Below are positions 1 through 11,723 of a stretch of 64,000 nucleotides of DNA, piece by piece. The notes beneath the pieces were generated by a model that ran no database searches, had not been told where the DNA came from, and saw only the letters and a program-made list of their open reading frames with translations. Within the stretch, counting starts at the first letter, position 1; each line of letters begins with the position of its first letter. This DNA comes from Nitrosomonas sp. (GTDB lineage: Bacteria; Pseudomonadota; Gammaproteobacteria; Burkholderiales; Nitrosomonadaceae), in assembly GCA_024281675.1 (NCBI GenBank), contig JAMXAG010000001.1:434001-498000 (forward strand), written 5' to 3'. The position numbers and the translations under genes are program-made.

Positions 1-1041
1 ATTGATCAAGAGCAAAAGTACCGCCAGCGCTATCTGGATTTGATTACCAATGAAGCAGCACGTAAAACTTTCACGATACGCTCGAAAGTGATTCAAGTCA
101 TTCGTGAATTCTTGGTTGCGCGTGAATATCTGGAAGTCGAAACGCCGATGATGCATTCGATTCCGGGCGGTGCTTCAGCGCGACCTTTTGCTACGCACCA
201 TAATGCTTTAGATATGGAGCTTTATTTGCGTATTGCGCCTGAGTTATATCTCAAGCGCTTGGTGGTGGGTGGTATGGAGAAAGTGTTTGAAATCAACCGT
301 AATTTTCGTAATGAAGGTATCTCTACCCGACATAATCCGGAATTTACGATGTTGGAATTCTATGAAGCCTATCAAGACTTTACTTACTTGATGGATTTGA
401 CTGAACAAATGTTTGCGGATGTCGCACAGAAAGTCCTGGGTACTCTGCAAATGACTTACCAAGGAAAAACCATCGACTTGTCAAAACGTTTTTTGCGGTT
501 GACGATTACACAGGCGATTCAGAAATTTCATCCGAGTTATACCGATGCGCAGCTTTGCGATCGAGGTTTTTTAATCGACACATTGGAATCGCTGAGTGTT
601 CATTACAATAGCAACGATGGCATTGGTGGGCTGCAACTGTCGTTGTTTGATGAGACTACTGAGCATTTGCTGTTTGAGCCGACGTTTATTGTTGATTATC
701 CGGCAGAAGTCTCGCCGTTGGCGCGACGTAACGATAGCAATGCAGATATTACTGACCGTTTTGAACTGTATATTGCCGGACGTGAAATTGCCAATGGTTT
801 CTCTGAATTGAACGATCCAGAGGATCAAGCCGCGCGTTTCCTAGAACAAGTGAAAGCTAAAGACGCCGGTGATACTGAAGCGATGCACTATGATTCTGAT
901 TACATCCGCGCGTTGGAATATGGTTTGCCACCAACGGCTGGAGAGGGTATTGGTATTGACCGTTTAGTAATGTTATTGACGGATAGCCCGAGTATTCGTG
1001 ATGTCATTTTGTTTCCACAGTTACGACGTGAGGATGGATGA
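1..1041 (+). CDS. lysS: Lysyl-tRNA synthetase, class II (5'-truncated by window edge)
   Basis: Class II lysyl-tRNA synthetase, which charges tRNA-Lys with lysine using ATP in the cytoplasm. The reading frame is open from base 1, so about 346 C-terminal residues of a usual ~500 are visible. The N-terminal OB-fold anticodon-binding domain lies outside the window. The visible part is the catalytic domain: it opens with the conserved YRQRYLDL segment, has class II motif 2 ([18 protein letters not shown]) and ends with motif 3 ([20 protein letters not shown]). The C-terminal end is typical for the family. It converges on the minus-strand HAD gene with about 11 bp between the two stop codons. Identification is secure; only the 5' end is missing. 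Confidence 0.97.
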
Positions 1042-5002: not shown

Positions 5003-5104
5003 CTGTAAGTAAAATCAGTGCAAATCATACCATTCATTCCCTTCTTTATGCTGCTAGAAGTGTGGTGTCTCACGTAAAGGTTTGCTATCGAATCGAATGC
5101 TGTA

Positions 5105-5133
5105 GTTATATGCAGCATGGATAAATGTGGCAA
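5105..5133 (-). promoter_or_regulatory. Predicted sigma-70 promoter for the leader RNA and hpnO-like gene
   Basis: On the minus strand, TTGCCA (5133-5128), a 17-bp spacer and TATAAC (5110-5105) form a near-consensus promoter. Transcription would begin near 5100. This gives about 130 nt to hairpin 1 and about 200 nt to the aminotransferase start. The leader also holds an SD-like AAGG and ATG codons at 5037 and 5028 that open a frame running through both hairpins. The rest of the 4899-5201 gap shows nothing else I can identify. Confidence 0.55.
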
Positions 5134-5201
5134 AGTTTTGCCGGAGATACTACACTAGATAGCCAATCGCGCAGCAAATATACCTAAGCAGGGAGCGAGG
5201 A

Positions 5202-5321
5202 TTGAACGAAAACAGTGATGAATTGCTACAGCCAGATTTATCCCAAATCTTTCTAGCTTCCTTAAGCATCAATAGAATGGGTGTAGTCTTAATGACTTTC
5301 ATAAGCGTAGATAAACAATGA
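5202..5321 (+). CDS. Possible 39-residue small protein coupled to the SIR2-TIR gene
   Basis: A short frame starts at TTG (5202) behind a GGAG-type ribosome site (GGGAGCGAGG, 5191-5200). It ends at a TGA that overlaps the ATG of the SIR2-TIR gene (ATGA). The product begins with acidic and polar residues (MNENSDELLQ) and has a hydrophobic second half (MGVVLMTFISV). Good SD placement plus stop-start overlap suggest translational coupling, either a real small protein or a leader that loads ribosomes onto the operon. At 39 codons, chance cannot be excluded. I recognise no family. Confidence 0.3.
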   Translation: MNENSDELLQPDLSQIFLASLSINRMGVVLMTFISVDKQ

Positions 5322-6694
5322 ACGAAAGAAGCTGGGACCGTTTGCTGAAATCAATTGAGGATGGGCTAGTGGTACCTGTATTGGGCCCTCAGGTACTCAT
5401 CGATCAAGATAACAAGGGTTCCCTGCAAGCGCAAATTGCGCACCAGCTTTTGAAGTTTTATAACGATGATATCGGTAGTGATGCGCTGCCACCGTGTCAT
5501 GAATTAAATGCAGTTGTCACGCGGCTTAAGCAGAATCACCCCATTCAGGATCTTTATGGAGATATTCATGACGCCATTGAGAAACTCATGCCTAAAAATG
5601 AGATTGATATTCCGCAATCTGTCAGACAAATTGCAGCCATTACGCATTTTCGTCTCTTTGTTACGCTCACACCAGATGATTTACTCGCTCGCAGCCTAAG
5701 GACACGCTGTGCAGTCAATGAGGTTATTCATTCACCTTATTTACCCACGAGCGAGGGATCCGATCTGCCGACTGACTGGTTGTCGCGTCCAGGGGAAGTG
5801 TATCTGCTCTATTTGTTTGGGAAATCAAGGCCGGCTCCGATGTATGCAATCCACGATGAGGATATTTTGGAGTATGTACACAATATCATTGCGCGTGGTA
5901 GTCATGTGCCGGTCAAGTTCTTTGATGAATTGCAACAGCGTAATCTTTTACTGATTGGTTGCAATTTTCCTGAGTGGTTAAGCCGATTTTTTCTGCGTCT
6001 GACCAATCAGAGGCGGCTTTCGGATATGCAGAGAAAACGGGAATGGTTGGTTGAGGCTTTACGCCCGGAAGAAGATCTCATTTATTTTCTCAGGAGCTAT
6101 AGCGAAGGCACTGAGGTTTTGCCGGATATTTCGCCTACCACGTTTATTGCTGAACTTCATCAGCGTTGGCTGGCGCGCAATGGCGCGGTGGCGGAAGGTG
6201 AGGTTACACCTGCGCAAGCTGAGATTATTCCTCGCAACACACTATTTTTTGTCAGTTACTGTCGAGCACCTGATTTTCCGGTTGCAGCGAAACTGGTGGC
6301 GTCATTGAAGTCACTAGGCGTGGCAGAAAATGAAATCTGGTTTGACAAATCCGAAATTGAACCCGGGCAGGATTTCCGCGAGCGTATTCTGGATGGTATC
6401 CGGTCTTGCCGCTATTTCGTGCCATTGATTTCCAATGCGGCCGATCAATTGGATGAAAAATTTTTCCGGCGTGAATGGCATGAAGCCATTGATCGCGGCA
6501 AATCGATTCAGGGACGCACGTTTGTTGTTCCCATGATCGTAGATCAGGCTTACGATCCGGAAAGTTATACGCGAGTACCTCGTGAATGGAAAGACGAATT
6601 GCATTTCGGCCATGCGCCGATAGGTCAGCCCGATGAACAAACTAGCGCATTATTAAAAAAACTCATCCGTGCCGAGAGGCAGCACGGGAGCTGA
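5318..6694 (+). CDS. SIR2-like (degenerate) - TIR domain protein
   Basis: First large gene of the four-gene conflict operon, 458 residues. Residues ~10-280 look like a SIR2-like Rossmann domain: the nucleotide loop is VVPVLGPQV (18-26), the position of the usual TxNxD motif reads TLTPDD (116-121), and the usual HG motif reads FGK (167-169). The SIR2 catalytic Asn and His therefore both appear to be replaced, which suggests an NAD-binding or sensing domain rather than an NADase. Residues ~305-440 are a TIR domain: it starts NTLFFVSY, has a WFDKSEIEPGQ segment, and E386 in RREWHEA sits at the expected catalytic Glu. Known TIR domains of this type cleave NAD+ or make signalling nucleotides. The stop lies 3 bp before the next start, so the two are clearly co-expressed. 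The SIR2 call is less certain than the TIR call. Confidence 0.78.
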   Translation: MNERSWDRLLKSIEDGLVVPVLGPQVLIDQDNKGSLQAQIAHQLLKFYNDDIGSDALPPCHELNAVVTRLKQNHPIQDLYGDIHDAIEKLMPKNEIDIPQSVRQIAAITHFRLFVTLTPDDLLARSLRTRCAVNEVIHSPYLPTSEGSDLPTDWLSRPGEVYLLYLFGKSRPAPMYAIHDEDILEYVHNIIARGSHVPVKFFDELQQRNLLLIGCNFPEWLSRFFLRLTNQRRLSDMQRKREWLVEALRPEEDLIYFLRSYSEGTEVLPDISPTTFIAELHQRWLARNGAVAEGEVTPAQAEIIPRNTLFFVSYCRAPDFPVAAKLVASLKSLGVAENEIWFDKSEIEPGQDFRERILDGIRSCRYFVPLISNAADQLDEKFFRREWHEAIDRGKSIQGRTFVVPMIVDQAYDPESYTRVPREWKDELHFGHAPIGQPDEQTSALLKKLIRAERQHGS

Positions 6695-6697
6695 GCG

Positions 6698-9600
6698 ATG
6701 AATACAACACCTGCTCCTTACATATCAATGGTAAGTAACGAGACACAAACGCATGTAACACTCACCGCCCAGTCACCCTGGCCGGGGCTTGCTGCCTATG
6801 ATGAGCGTGCGAGTGATTTCTTTTTCGGCCGCAAGGAAGAAGCTGCCGAGTTGGTGCGCATGATTCGCTTGGCGCCATTGACTGTGCTGTATGGCAAATC
6901 TGGGCTCGGCAAAACTTCATTATTACAAGCTGGGCTTTATCCATTGTTGCGTGCCGAGCATTATTTTCCTGTTCATTTGCGGCTTGATTTCAGTTCGTCA
7001 GCAATACTTGCGCCGCTGGATCAAGCCATGCAGAAATTATTGCAGGCATTTGCCGGAGCAGGTGTTGAATTTTCACCAACCGCGGCAGGTGAAAGTCTAT
7101 GGCACTATCTGCACCGACGTGATTTGGAAATATGGAATCAGGATAATTATCCGCTTACACCGGTATTGATTTTTGATCAGTTCGAAGAAATTTTTTCCCA
7201 GGGAGAATGGAATCCCGAGCGAATTCAGCCTAGCCTCAATGCCTTGGCCGATCTGATTGAGAATCGTATTCCGGATGAGTTTATCGCGGGAGATACCAGT
7301 CGGCATGCTCTGTCTGAACTGGATGTACGAGCACAGCACTATCGTATTGTGTTGTCTTTCCGAGAAGATTTTCTTGCCGAAATCGAGGGCTGGAAGGAAC
7401 AAGTACCCTCTTTGTTGCGCAACCGCTTGCGCTTACTCCCGATGTCACGTGAGCGCGCTATTCAGGCCGTTACCTCAGCAGGCTCAGCCGTGCTTGCAGC
7501 AGGTGTTGCAGAACCGCTGGTTGATTTTGTCGGTAATCTGGATTCATCCACGGCAAGTATCTTGCCAGTAATTGAGCCCGTTTTGCTAAGTCTTTGCTGC
7601 TATCAACTGAATCAGCGCCGCTCACCTGGCAGCAAGATAGACATCGATCTATTGCATCAGGTTGGACAGGACATTCTGCAGGATTTCTATCATGAAGCAT
7701 TGGCCGGGATGCCTGCAACGGTATCAGAGTTTATTGAAACTTACTTGATTCAAGGCAATCGCTATCGCAGCAGTTACCCTGTCGATCAGGCATTGCAGGA
7801 TGAGTTTCTGACCAGGGAACAGCTTTCGCTTCTGGCCAGCAAGCACCGACTGCTACGTATTGACCAGCAATTAGGTGTGAATCGGATTGAGCTGATTCAC
7901 GACCGCTTAGTTACTGTCGTGAGCAAAGCACGCGATGAGCGTTTGCGGCAGGCTGAACTGCAGCGCTTGCGCGCTGAAGACGAAGCACGTAGGCGTCAGA
8001 TGGAGTTGGCCAATGCCTTGGAGAAGCAGGTTGCCGCAGAAGCACTGGCGGAAGAGCGATTACGCGCGACGGAAAGGGTGCAAGCCGATGCGACACGCTT
8101 GCGTAAACAGACAAGGCAATTGCAAGGGGCGTTGCTGGGCGTCATCATACTAGCGGGTGTGGCGGGTTACGGCTTATACGATGCCCATTCTGAAAAGAAA
8201 GTACGCAAGCTGGCGCAGCGGGAAGCAATTAGCTTGCGCTTAGTATCAGAAAGTCTGGATATCTCCAGCGGTGTTCGTCCCGGTGGAGATGAGCGCGCGA
8301 TTCTACAATTGCTCGCCGCGCAGCAGCTATCTCCCGGCAATAAAAAGGTTGATGCGGCCCTCATTACTACGCTGAGCAGAAAATACTCCACGCAAAAAAT
8401 CTGGTCTGTGGGTAGCAAAATCAATGCCATTGCCTTCAGTCCTGATGGCACACGCCTTGTTTCAGCTGATAGCGATGGCATGCTGCAGGAGTGGGATATT
8501 AATACCGGCCAGCTGATTGGTGATCGATTGCCGGGAGTTATAGAGGGGGTATCGAATGTGGCTACTTCCCCAGACGGTCAGATTAGCGTGCTAAGCAGTC
8601 AGGATAATACTTTGCGCCTGTTGAATGTCCGCACCGGCCAACCGATTGGTGAACCTCTGCGTGGACATGAGGGAAAAGTTGTCAGTGTTGCGTTTTCACC
8701 TGACGGTAAGCGGATTGCTTCGGCTAGTCGGGATGCAACTGTGCGGTTATGGACAGCCAGTAATATTCAGCTTATCGATGCGCCGCTGCAGGGGCACGAA
8801 GATATGGTGACGAGTGTTGTCTTCAGTCCAGATGGTACACGCATTCTTTCCGCCAGCGACGATAAAACGCTGCGGTTATGGCATGCTGACACCGGTCAAT
8901 CGATTGGCGAACCGATGCGCGGCCATGAAGGCACACTCAATGGCGCGGTATTCAGTCCGGATGGCGCACGTATAGTCTCGGCTGCGAGTGACGAAACGCT
9001 GCGGCTATGGGATGCCAATACGGGGCAACCGATCGGCGAACCGCTGCAGGGACATGAAGCAAGTGTAGAGAGCGTCGCGTTCAGCCCGGATGGTGCATGG
9101 ATCGCGTCAGGGGGTAAGGACAGCATGGTGCGTGTATGGAATGCTCATACCGGTCAACCGCTGGGTGAACCCTTGCGGCGGCATCAGAAAATGGTGCGCA
9201 GTGTTGCTTTCAGCCCAGATAGTGCATCTATTGTTTCAGGCAGTTACGACAATACGTTGCAGCGCTGGAATGTCAAGACGGGCCAACCCATTGACGAACC
9301 GATGACAGGGCACACCGGGCCCGTGGTGAATGTAGCCTACAGTCCGAATGGCCAGTATATTGTATCAGGCAGTAAAGATAGAACAGTGCGGTTGTGGAAT
9401 GCCCATACCGGCCAACTGATCGGCGAAGCACTGCAAGGGCATGAGGAGCGCGTGAACGGCGTGGCTTTCAGCCCCGATAGCCGCCGTATTGTCTCCGGTA
9501 GTCACGATATGATGCTGCGATTATGGGATGTGGAAAGAGGGCTGCCACTTGGCGATCCGTTACCGGGGCATGTGGGTGCTGTATTGAGCGTGGCCTTTAG

Positions 9601-9841
9601 TCCGGATGGCGCGCGTATCGTTTCGGGTAGCGCTGATAAAACCCTCCGGCTGTGGCCGGCCAACACCGAGTGGGTGACCGAGCTTTGTAGTAAGCTGACT
9701 CGCAATATGAGCCCAACGGAATGGCGTACATGGGTATCGCCTGATGTCAAATACCGTAAACAATGCGCTAATTTGCCTATTCCTGAGGATACTGCTGCGG
9801 CCGCAGAATCGTCCTCAGGTGACCGGGAATCGGGCTCATGA
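6698..9841 (+). CDS. nSTAND1 NTPase with transmembrane segment and C-terminal WD40 repeats
   Basis: A 1047-residue multidomain protein. Residues ~25-400 are a STAND-type P-loop NTPase of the nSTAND1 kind: the entry motif is PGLAAYDERASDFFFGR, Walker A is GKSGLGKT (66-73), Walker B is LIFDQFEEIF (D160, E163, E164), and a sensor-like FREDFLAEI follows. Residues ~405-470 form a highly charged coiled coil, followed by one hydrophobic helix at about 474-494. Residues ~574-990 hold ten WD40 repeats of exactly 43 residues. The tail (ELCSKLTRNMSPTEWRTWV) is typical of this family. By family knowledge, STAND NTPases are switches that oligomerise on sensing a ligand; the WD40 part is the likely sensor and the adjacent TIR proteins the likely effectors. 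Start ATG is 3 bp after the SIR2-TIR stop. Confidence 0.9.
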   Translation: MNTTPAPYISMVSNETQTHVTLTAQSPWPGLAAYDERASDFFFGRKEEAAELVRMIRLAPLTVLYGKSGLGKTSLLQAGLYPLLRAEHYFPVHLRLDFSSSAILAPLDQAMQKLLQAFAGAGVEFSPTAAGESLWHYLHRRDLEIWNQDNYPLTPVLIFDQFEEIFSQGEWNPERIQPSLNALADLIENRIPDEFIAGDTSRHALSELDVRAQHYRIVLSFREDFLAEIEGWKEQVPSLLRNRLRLLPMSRERAIQAVTSAGSAVLAAGVAEPLVDFVGNLDSSTASILPVIEPVLLSLCCYQLNQRRSPGSKIDIDLLHQVGQDILQDFYHEALAGMPATVSEFIETYLIQGNRYRSSYPVDQALQDEFLTREQLSLLASKHRLLRIDQQLGVNRIELIHDRLVTVVSKARDERLRQAELQRLRAEDEARRRQMELANALEKQVAAEALAEERLRATERVQADATRLRKQTRQLQGALLGVIILAGVAGYGLYDAHSEKKVRKLAQREAISLRLVSESLDISSGVRPGGDERAILQLLAAQQLSPGNKKVDAALITTLSRKYSTQKIWSVGSKINAIAFSPDGTRLVSADSDGMLQEWDINTGQLIGDRLPGVIEGVSNVATSPDGQISVLSSQDNTLRLLNVRTGQPIGEPLRGHEGKVVSVAFSPDGKRIASASRDATVRLWTASNIQLIDAPLQGHEDMVTSVVFSPDGTRILSASDDKTLRLWHADTGQSIGEPMRGHEGTLNGAVFSPDGARIVSAASDETLRLWDANTGQPIGEPLQGHEASVESVAFSPDGAWIASGGKDSMVRVWNAHTGQPLGEPLRRHQKMVRSVAFSPDSASIVSGSYDNTLQRWNVKTGQPIDEPMTGHTGPVVNVAYSPNGQYIVSGSKDRTVRLWNAHTGQLIGEALQGHEERVNGVAFSPDSRRIVSGSHDMMLRLWDVERGLPLGDPLPGHVGAVLSVAFSPDGARIVSGSADKTLRLWPANTEWVTELCSKLTRNMSPTEWRTWVSPDVKYRKQCANLPIPEDTAAAAESSSGDRESGS
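8420..9673 (+). repeat. Ten tandem 129-bp WD40-coding repeats
   Basis: Ten in-frame units of 129 bp lie inside the nSTAND1 gene, with consensus product V-x-S-V-A-F-S-P-D-G ... T-L-R-L-W ... G-Q-P-I-G-E-P-L-x-G-H-E. Repeats 3-10 are the most alike; repeats 1 and 2 are more diverged. The region is visibly more GC-rich than most of the window. Ten blades do not fit a single seven-blade propeller, so copy number may vary. Confidence 0.9.
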
Positions 9842-9985
9842 TAGGCATATTGAATATCAAGCCCAACTTTTGATGGCAATTCATTTATGTAATCTGCTCA
9901 TTTAAGTTATTGCACTGACCCATTGCTGGTGGCATTCTTAATCTGTTTCGTTATGGCGTGCAGGAAAAAACAACGAGGAGGTTGA

Positions 9986-10675
9986 ATGAACATATTTCTC
10001 GCATTCGCATTCAGGGATGTCGACAAACCTTTAGTCGGTTATATGGACCGGCTACTTGCTAGCCAATTCGTGCAAAGCAAGACAGGCGAGAATCTTGGCG
10101 GTGAGATGCTAACACCTGTAGTGCAAAAGCGCATTGAAGACAGTGATGCACTGATAGCGTTGCTTACCAGACGTGACCAACTTGCTTCAGGCGGTTGGAC
10201 TACCCATGCATGGGTCAAGGACGAGTTGGCATGGGCACGTGCAAAAGGTAAGCCGGCTGTCGCACTGATTGAAGAGGGTGTAACCGTGGATGGCATGTTT
10301 CAGCCGCATGAGTATATCCCGTTGCAACGGGATAATCCGCTGGAGGCTATTTTGAGGCTTGCAGAGACAGTGGCAGGCTGGAAGCAGGATGTCGGTCGAT
10401 TGATCAAGGTACAACTTGCCCCTGAAGATCTTGCAGCGAAATTGGGAGAGGGTGAAATTCCATGCCGGCACCGGCTTTGGCAAAAGGGCAAGTTCACTGA
10501 CTGGAGAGACGTGACACCGGTACCCGAAACAGGCGGCACGTTTATATATATTGATGGAGTCAGGGAGGATCAGCTTATCCAGATACGAGTAGAAGAACCA
10601 GGCAAGGTTTGGCAATCACCCGCCACTTCGCAGTGGATGTTGATTCAACTCAAGACGGGGGGTGCTGGCAAATGA
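9986..10675 (+). CDS. TIR-like domain protein with unrecognised C-terminal domain
   Basis: A 229-residue protein, third large gene of the operon, 144 bp after the nSTAND1 gene and behind a very strong ribosome site (GAGGAGG). Residues 1-135 look like a TIR-like fold. An N-terminal strand (MNIFLAFAFRD) is followed by a strand ending in DALIALLTRRD, then WVKDELAWARAKGKPAVALI, where E80 matches the usual TIR catalytic Glu. The C-terminal ~90 residues (KGKFTDWRD, GTFIYIDGVREDQLIQIRV) look all-beta and I recognise no family. A TIR-related nucleotide hydrolase or deoxyribosyltransferase-type fold is an alternative. The stop overlaps the next start (ATGA), so the last two genes are translationally coupled. 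Inferred role: effector or signal-making enzyme of the conflict system. Confidence 0.68.
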   Translation: MNIFLAFAFRDVDKPLVGYMDRLLASQFVQSKTGENLGGEMLTPVVQKRIEDSDALIALLTRRDQLASGGWTTHAWVKDELAWARAKGKPAVALIEEGVTVDGMFQPHEYIPLQRDNPLEAILRLAETVAGWKQDVGRLIKVQLAPEDLAAKLGEGEIPCRHRLWQKGKFTDWRDVTPVPETGGTFIYIDGVREDQLIQIRVEEPGKVWQSPATSQWMLIQLKTGGAGK

Positions 10676-11460
10676 GTATTCGTATTGAACAGAGCTCGGC
10701 TTATGTAGGCGAAAATCGATGGAATTGGTCGGTATGGATTACCGGTCCTGCGGCAGAGCTGGATCAAATAGATCATGTCACATATACCTTACATCCAACA
10801 TTTCCTAATCCGGTGAGAGAAATTCGCGCCAGAAAAGGTGGATTCCGGTTAAAGTCCAATGGCTGGGGTGAATTTACCATTTATCTGGATATTGCCTACA
10901 AGGATGGCAAGCATCAACAACTCAGTCATGACCTGCAATTGACGTCAGAGATTAGTGCTAAAGATAATAATACAGAGCAAAGCAATGATACAGAGATTGC
11001 TTTGCATATGAATGAGTTCGTGCCAGACCTTAAAAATACTGCGCAAGAATTTTTGCGCAAAGCGATAGATGCCGCAGTAAAGCATATTCCCCAAAAAATA
11101 ATATTCATTTCAGGAGGCGCTGCTGATGCCGAGGTTCTTAGACGTCTGCGTGAATCCCTGAAAAAGCTGAATTTGTGCATTAAGGATGCGACAGATGTTC
11201 CCGCCGGCGTCCCAGTGCAAGCATACATCGATAGCCTTATCACCAAAGCAGATGTTGTCATCTTCCTGATATCTGGACGTCCCAGCTTATGGCTTAGTCA
11301 AGAAATTGATTCTGCCAAGCGCAGTCAAAAGCCTTTGGTGCCGATCCTTGTCGGGCAAGATAGTCACTTACCTGTAAGTTTGAGTGAATATCAATATTAC
11401 CGCATAGACAATCTCAGCAATATTGCTGACTTAGCGCAGAAACTATTGAAGTATCTCTAG
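10672..11460 (+). CDS. Prokaryotic YEATS (pYEATS) - TIR fusion protein
   Basis: A 262-residue protein ending the conflict operon. The frame could extend upstream, but the ATG at 10672 overlaps the preceding stop and removes an implausible leader. Residues 3-92 match a YEATS-like beta-sandwich: the strand ending LHPTFPNP (40-47), the GWGEF motif (64-68) and a final SHDLQLT strand are the diagnostic pieces. Residues 93-140 are a polar linker. Residues 141-262 are a TIR-like domain starting KIIFISGGA, with ADVVIFLISGRPS and E211 in LSQEIDSAK at the expected catalytic position. Eukaryotic YEATS domains read acylated lysine; bacterial versions occur in predicted conflict systems with TIR, caspase-like and STAND partners. 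The ligand here is unknown. Confidence 0.8.
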   Translation: MSIRIEQSSAYVGENRWNWSVWITGPAAELDQIDHVTYTLHPTFPNPVREIRARKGGFRLKSNGWGEFTIYLDIAYKDGKHQQLSHDLQLTSEISAKDNNTEQSNDTEIALHMNEFVPDLKNTAQEFLRKAIDAAVKHIPQKIIFISGGAADAEVLRRLRESLKKLNLCIKDATDVPAGVPVQAYIDSLITKADVVIFLISGRPSLWLSQEIDSAKRSQKPLVPILVGQDSHLPVSLSEYQYYRIDNLSNIADLAQKLLKYL

Positions 11461-11723
11461 CTTATGCTTCCATTAACACAATGCCGAATCAATTACTGGT
11501 ATAAAAGGTATCCTCATGAATCTCTCACCATTATTAACCGCTATTTACACAAAATCTAGGGTATCCTCTCGGTTATTCCAATTGCCGCTATAAAATCTCG
11601 TGTGCTTTTTAGTTTATAGGTTAAAGCACGCCTTAATCATTTCCACACCCAGTATGTCGCTGATTTGCGGTAAAATGACGCTTTGTGTGTATTTTTCATT
11701 TTGCAATTGCGCGAGAATCCATT

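Follow-up and report, generated by a model that had tools for sequence, protein, structure and literature searches.

Two neighbouring predicted immune modules at a four-gene TIR locus of Nitrosomonas: a pseudo-sirtuin-TIR/STAND pair beside a TIR-like/pYEATS-TIR pair

A 64,000-nucleotide stretch of a Nitrosomonas sp. genome (assembly GCA_024281675.1, contig JAMXAG010000001.1, positions 434,001 to 498,000 of the forward strand; referred to as the window) carries four consecutive genes, g1 to g4, that encode a SIR2-fold protein fused to a TIR domain, a STAND ATPase with WD40 repeats, a TIR-like protein and a pYEATS-TIR protein, respectively (Table 1). The host is an ammonia-oxidising bacterium with a genome of 2.8 Mb (G000; L and G numbers denote loci and genomes). 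The four genes and their domains, as described in an initial annotation of the window, were confirmed, with indirect support for TIR in g3. That annotation had taken them for one system, by which it probably mis-grouped the genes. We lean towards the reading that the locus consists of two neighbouring predicted immune modules, g1-g2 (pair 1) and g3-g4 (pair 2). A role in defence is the most likely one: pair 1 would be an NLR-like TIR defence system of two genes, and its neighbour an acyl-lysine-reader/TIR module.

An association between g1 and g2 emerged from a genome scan with two SIR2-domain peptide patterns, which were derived from four sequences of the g1 alignment. The scan yielded 42 loci, and in 41 of these an nSTAND1 relative of g2 lies 3' of g1 on the same strand; the single miss (L067) is a 173-aa fragment. 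The hosts are as diverse as Nitrosomonas, Burkholderiales and Nitrospira on the one hand and metagenome-assembled genomes (MAGs) of Acidobacteria, Verrucomicrobia and Bacteroidetes on the other, and the closest match to the g1 of the host genome stems from a Nitrosomonas MAG (93% identity). Within the family, taken as Nitrosomonadaceae, g1 is present in 23 of 125 genomes. Moreover, the pairwise identities of g1 correlate with those of the nSTAND domain, both for the SIR2 part (r 0.96) and for the TIR part (r 0.93; 40 pairs, permutation p 0.0005, with relatedness still contained in these values). The spacing was evaluated for 46 loci, namely all scan loci but one (41 of 42) together with L010, L020, L021, L022 and L024, with the search for g2 confined to the strand of g1 and with L023 (g1 at a contig end) and L025 (a decayed paralogue) omitted. 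After correction of the g2 start, the gap ranges from -53 to +145 bp in 44 of them; the exceptions are L022, where the SIR2 and TIR parts lie in separate open reading frames (ORFs), and L063, where the choice of ORF is ambiguous. The adjacency and the correlated identities argue for the two-module reading.

The domain composition of g1 points in the same direction. Its TIR domain exceeds the Pfam cut-off (TIR_2, 8e-15) and the SIR2 match stays below it (SIR2_2, 0.015); both folds are supported by the AlphaFold2 model (predicted local distance difference test score 86.8). Residues 1-293 were found to resemble chain 9xvc_E of KomBC (19.5/3.6/256; VIA values for Z, root-mean-square deviation (rmsd) and aligned, respectively), DSR2 (18.8/4.0/254), SeThsA (18.6/3.7/254) and Avs5 (16.6/4.7/253), and residues 305-454 the TIR domain of SPARTA (15.2/2.8/138); the comparison with BcThsA gave a Z of 19.4, yet an rmsd of 18.1 over both domains. 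The only SIR2 protein matched in a sequence-profile search with g1 was SeThsA, and in this weak alignment (E 0.048) the Asn of the ThsA motif TTNYD and the His of LHG, presumably the SIR2 catalytic residues, lie opposite T118 and F167. Neither residue occurs in the g1 family: position 118 is T in 37 members and M, G or S in one each (Asn 0/40), and position 167 is F in 34 and L in six (His 0/40). The TIR glutamate E386, however, is kept in all 39 readable members, the fortieth being unreadable. Besides the window sequence, the underlying alignment includes all scan loci except L044, L063 and L067 (39 of 42), and since the scan relied on two patterns from four sequences, the counts hold for this family and not for all SIR2-TIR proteins. 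The initial annotation had recognised the SIR2 domain and overlooked the loss of its catalytic residues. An active SIR2 domain in g1 was thus rejected: the protein appears to be a catalytically dead sirtuin joined to an intact-looking TIR domain, sirtuin activity (NAD+ hydrolysis or deacylation) is predicted to be absent, and because both catalytic residues are missing any NAD+ chemistry of g1 should come from the TIR domain alone. A SIR2 fold that has lost N and H next to a TIR domain that keeps its Glu is a second argument for the two-module reading.

SIR2 folds bind nucleotides, and the residues lost in g1 are the catalytic ones, while P20, G23, D120 and G168 show little or no variation. 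The domain could thus act as a receptor instead of a scaffold, by binding a nucleotide that another TIR protein (g3, g4 or other) forms from NAD+ and switching on the TIR domain of g1. We consider this unlikely, as g3-g4 was not seen near most g1-g2 loci and ligand binding is purely hypothetical.

The sequence of g2 assigns it to the nSTAND1 NTPase family, as its domain scores 107.5 bits against a curated cut-off of 27.1 and is accompanied by Walker motifs. A strict Walker A pattern is found in 38 of 40 sequences, the other two carrying SKSGLGKT, and a Walker B-like motif in 39 of 40. The WD40 part likewise agrees with the initial annotation (Pfam, 1.5e-101). A hydrophobic, transmembrane (TM)-like segment lies 3' of the nSTAND domain in 41 of 46 g2-like ORFs, a set that may contain a second such ORF of one locus. 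The C-terminal sensor is variable: a simple pattern detects at least five WD40-like motifs in 25 of the 46 loci, and a Pfam scan of ten other C-termini revealed TPR repeats in L037, L041 and L058, TPR matches below cut-off in L057, WD40 plus Sel1 in L024, beta-propeller matches (mostly below cut-off) in L056 and an RHS-repeat match in L061, and gave no family for L010, L053 and L065. The retained Walker motifs and the exchange of sensors also support a reading in two modules.

Pair 1 resembles several known systems and differs from each of them. Thoeris consists of ThsA (SIR2-SLOG) and ThsB (TIR), whereas g1 combines SIR2 and TIR in one protein, has TIR (region 305-454) in the place of SLOG, lacks by the weak SeThsA alignment the catalytic Asn and His of ThsA, and has a STAND partner. 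In Avs5, SIR2 and STAND form one polypeptide, whereas they are separate ORFs here, adjacent in the 41 scan loci; in addition, the STAND protein of pair 1 is of the nSTAND1 type with WD40 or TPR, the SIR2 domain of g1 seems inactive by sequence and a TIR domain is added as effector. The entry titles of Kongming KomC and of DSR2 refer to mutants in the catalytic-type His (H146N and H171A), a residue that is naturally Phe or Leu in the g1 family. The nSTAND1 conflict systems of Kaur et al. 2021 (PMC8195603) are related in that the clade to which they give the name nSTAND1 includes g2; the available passages of that paper describe TIR effectors alongside STAND proteins and contain no separate pseudo-SIR2-TIR partner gene. 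In a partial literature collection of titles and passages, including PMC7159879 and PMC8195603, no paper describing the present gene set was found.

The host genome itself contains a decayed paralogue of pair 1 (L025:7473-9890, contig C28), in which a pseudo-SIR2 domain (8817-9890) is directly continued by a WD40 fragment; about 1 kb off lies a short remnant resembling g2 (7473-7694), with an ORF in between that looked transposase-like on inspection. This genome has 13 TIR_2 matches above cut-off, and any such match was found in four of 14 control genomes. In Paraburkholderia caribensis MBA4 (L010:1920-9288) the genes ahead of pair 1 encode a CHAT protein (Pfam), phosphoesterase-like and SGNH-like proteins (both by inspection) and a protein of the TPR-S gene cluster. 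Relatives of that cluster also adjoin pair 1 in L030, L040, L041 and L048, in all five loci without g3-g4.

With regard to pair 2, the best-defined component is g4. Beyond the pYEATS match of the initial annotation, which was recovered (Table 1), Pfam YEATS scored 8.8e-16, and an alignment to Yaf9 (E 4.8e-9) runs through LHPTFPNPVR and GWGEF. With its LH.TF and GWGEF segments g4 can be assigned to the YEATS family; the motif match to Yaf9 is again in line with two modules. Residues F44 and W65, which we take to be the acyl-lysine aromatic pocket positions of eukaryotic YEATS domains, are invariant in the six chosen pYEATS rows aligned, and the pocket is predicted to recognise acylated lysine or a similar acyl group; on inspection the pYEATS sequences of L109, L114 and L118 diverge from the LHPTF/GWGEF motifs. 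By their scores above cut-off and a catalytic-type Glu, g1 and g4 both classify as TIR proteins. For g3, the third TIR-like protein initially annotated, the support is indirect. A Pfam scan gave nothing significant (best QueF_N, 0.27), and its homologue in L154, which has 30% identity and the same architecture, matches TIR_2 below the curated cut-off (8.3e-5). The AlphaFold2 model is poor (confidence 44), and with this low-confidence model TIR folds rank first in Foldseek. W71, H74, W76, V77 and E80 are invariant in the six-row alignment A10. All three glutamates proposed initially (E386, E80 and E211) are conserved in homologues. A profile of the C-terminal domain of g3 was compared with 5393 ORFs, and its best match outside g3, suggestive only, was a gene just 5' of the pYEATS gene in L113 (E 0.25). 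This gene (L113:4290-5443) has hydrophobic segments and abuts the pYEATS gene, its weak likeness to g3 being in the C-terminus.

The genomic context of g3 and g4 suggests that they form a pair of their own, rarer than pair 1 and inherited separately from it. In the family g3 occurs in four of 125 genomes, and the same four contain a full-length g4, in each case adjacent to g3; partial g4 matches alone were seen in two others. Three genomes outside the family contain relatives of g3 (~30% identity to it) directly 5' of a pYEATS gene, at 3 bp in L108 (G935), at 25 bp in L153 (G1560) and with a GTGA overlap in L154 (G1528), where the g4 counterpart has the same pYEATS-TIR architecture; an ATGA or GTGA overlap thus occurs in two distant lineages. 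A scan for g1 in two of these genomes, G935 and G1528, performed without a positive control, gave no match. Both the coupling of g3 to g4 in distant genomes and this absence of g1 favour two modules. Domains of the pYEATS type above cut-off are rare: they were found in 2 of 398 genomes of the phylum (host genome included) and in 4 of 151 and 2 of 150 genomes of two further samples, both of which count G935. Work of Burroughs and Aravind (J Bacteriol, 2020) reportedly treats prokaryotic YEATS and TPR-S systems, with which pair 2 would share the pYEATS, TPR-S and TIR domains and the theme of NAD+-derived signals.

The initial annotation missed that in relatives a TPR-S gene (c4) lies 3' of g4. 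L104 has it in this position with an open reading frame, and similarity points to the same arrangement in L027, where the frame stays open as far as the available stretch reaches; in L108 a TPR-S gene adjoins the pYEATS gene. The protein was identified by Pfam in L104 and L108. A larger, broken remnant is found in L026, and the window retains some 50 nt. Locus L104 (G772:C1:3175000-3194999) forms a dense predicted conflict cluster of patatin with TPR-S, TPR-S, g4, g3, SLATT_1, TIR, a second nSTAND1-WD40 gene, a subtilisin-like gene and the end of g2.

Several observations weigh against the two-module interpretation. In the window the pairs share a strand with 144 bp between them, and all four g3-positive family genomes carry g1, so that the pairs could still cooperate. 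At eight loci reached by pYEATS searches outside the four g3-bearing Nitrosomonas genomes, a clear g3 was present in L108 alone and no g3-like gene was found in L012, L109, L114, L115, L118 and L119 (the pYEATS match of the last being below cut-off); pYEATS thus often occurs without g3. A PDB sequence-profile search with g3 found no TIR, and hhalign aligned g3 with the TIR region of g1 at 1% probability, so that TIR in g3 is a candidate assignment. With respect to defence, no relative of g1, g3, g4 or pYEATS turned up in viral contigs scanned with patterns, nor did phages give a match to pYEATS, the only part searched there. PADLOC and NCBIfam searches matched no named defence system. An exact match, which the initial annotation had likewise not known, was rejected, as the matches concerned single-domain TIR, P-loop, phospholipase or repeat models. 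The remainder of the window contains housekeeping genes, judged from inspection of ORF starts. Plasmid searches with g3 were unproductive, and two plasmid matches of g4 (H2, H3) were dismissed since each covers a single domain.

The arrangement on one strand at short spacing could also reflect one four-protein system, in which the STAND protein senses a trigger and three TIR proteins act in one cascade. Indeed, the same four genes are consecutive in L026, where g2 and g3 are 120 bp apart, and g1 accompanies every g3 of the family. However, neither g3 nor g4 gave a match within the stretch covered at 39 of the 41 scan loci in which g1 and g2 are both present, pair 2 lies 3.9 kb (L027) or ~9 kb (G772) from g2 with other genes intervening, and the two distant genomes combine g3 and pYEATS without a g1 match. 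In G772 the intervening genes are SLATT_1, TIR and a second nSTAND1-WD40 gene, with a subtilisin-like gene (inspection) on the opposite strand. It is improbable, then, that the four genes form a single system, and this comparative separation led us to reject it as the principal interpretation.

The locus as a whole was found to be a variable segment, in agreement with the insertion beside purM noted initially. Homology of the flanks with the close relative G183 stops at 5079 and is resumed at 11633, and in G183 (locus L122) the aminotransferase gene and purM are separated by ~690 bp, which represents the empty site. Among 76 genomes of the genus, the still closer G823 (the L026 strain; aminotransferase 98% identical) carries the block, which G183 (97%) lacks; the sole g1 relative of G183 is a distant one elsewhere in its genome. 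The insertion with its empty site, together with the effector-type genes beside relatives (SLATT, patatin, TPR-S, CHAT and ThsB-type TIR), supports the two-module defence reading. The same parts might instead serve a developmental or stress-related programmed arrest that is not antiviral, in line with the housekeeping surroundings and the lack of relatives in the viral contigs scanned; given the patchy spread of g1, the empty site in a close relative and the defence-type neighbours, we regard this as quite unlikely.

The layout of the genes agrees with the initial description (3-bp spacing, ATGA overlap and a strong ribosome site): the 3-bp gap separates g1 and g2, the overlap of g3 and g4 lies at 10672 and the ribosome site precedes g3; the 144-bp gap between g2 and g3 had gone unmentioned. 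The start of g4 was set at the ATG at 10672 instead of the upstream TTG (10609) of the mechanical ORF list. An AGGAG-type site likewise precedes g3 in L026 and L027. Between g2 and g3 no promoter-like or terminator-like site was found on the + strand, promoter-like sites overall being fewer than in shuffled sequence, and the four-gene block contains no DNA tandem-repeat array.

Table 1. Genes, predicted domains and other features of the four-gene locus (positions in the window)
Feature	Residues	Position	Strand	Description or basis
g1		5318..6694	+	458 aa; pseudo-SIR2 + TIR
g1 putative pseudo-SIR2 domain	1-293	5318-6196	+	predicted structure comparison, residue alignment
g1 TIR domain	305-454	6230-6679	+	catalytic-type E386; Pfam, structure
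g2		6698..9841	+	1047 aa; nSTAND1 NTPase, TM-like segment, WD40 array
g2 nSTAND1 NTPase	27-413		+	Pfam nSTAND1 1.6e-30
g2 TM-like segment	475-493	8120-8176	+	hydrophobic segment after nSTAND
Ribosome-binding site of g3		9976..9981	+	AGGAGG, sequence read; 4 nt 5' of g3 start
g3		9986..10675	+	229 aa; TIR-like + undescribed C-terminal domain
g3 TIR-like domain	1-137		+	E80; homologue L154, alignment A10
g3 undescribed C-terminal domain	138-229		+	
g4		10672..11460	+	262 aa; pYEATS + TIR
g4 pYEATS	17-88	10720-10935	+	F44 and W65; Pfam pYEATS 6.2e-24
g4 TIR	144-248	11101-11415	+	E211; Pfam TIR_2 1.6e-10
TPR-S gene (c4) remnant		11473..11522	+	80% over 50 nt to c4 upstream + start region
Insertion relative to G183		5080..11632	.	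between aminotransferase gene and purM

In the two-module reading, the STAND protein g2, probably tethered to the membrane, would detect a trigger through its C-terminal repeats (WD40; TPR or other in relatives), exchange nucleotide and oligomerise. It might then recruit or cluster g1 by way of the dead SIR2 domain, which would serve as a scaffold, upon which the TIR domains of g1 would assemble, cleave NAD+ and stop the infected cell. In the second module the YEATS pocket would recognise an acylated lysine, or a similar acyl group, and license the production of NAD+-derived signals by TIR, which in relatives the neighbouring TPR-S protein would read. Since the gene for this putative receptor is almost wholly deleted in the window strain, the second module may be crippled there or may use another receptor. 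A bolder proposal is that g1-g2 represents an undescribed two-gene family of bacterial NLRs, in which a pseudo-sirtuin platform links a STAND ATPase with exchangeable sensors to a TIR NADase, and that at the same time TIR signalling in the immune module g3-g4 is gated by a YEATS domain that reads lysine acylation; this combined claim is tentative, and we hold it to be rather doubtful.

If true, SIR2 folds in defence would not always be NADases, as a widespread family would keep the fold and lose the active site, with the chemistry left to TIR. The scaffold role of SIR2 assemblies would become directly testable, and the exchangeable sensors of g2 would constitute a natural set of bacterial receptors for the discovery of triggers. 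In addition, the pYEATS-TIR pair would connect a chromatin-reader fold known from eukaryotes with bacterial NAD+ signalling.

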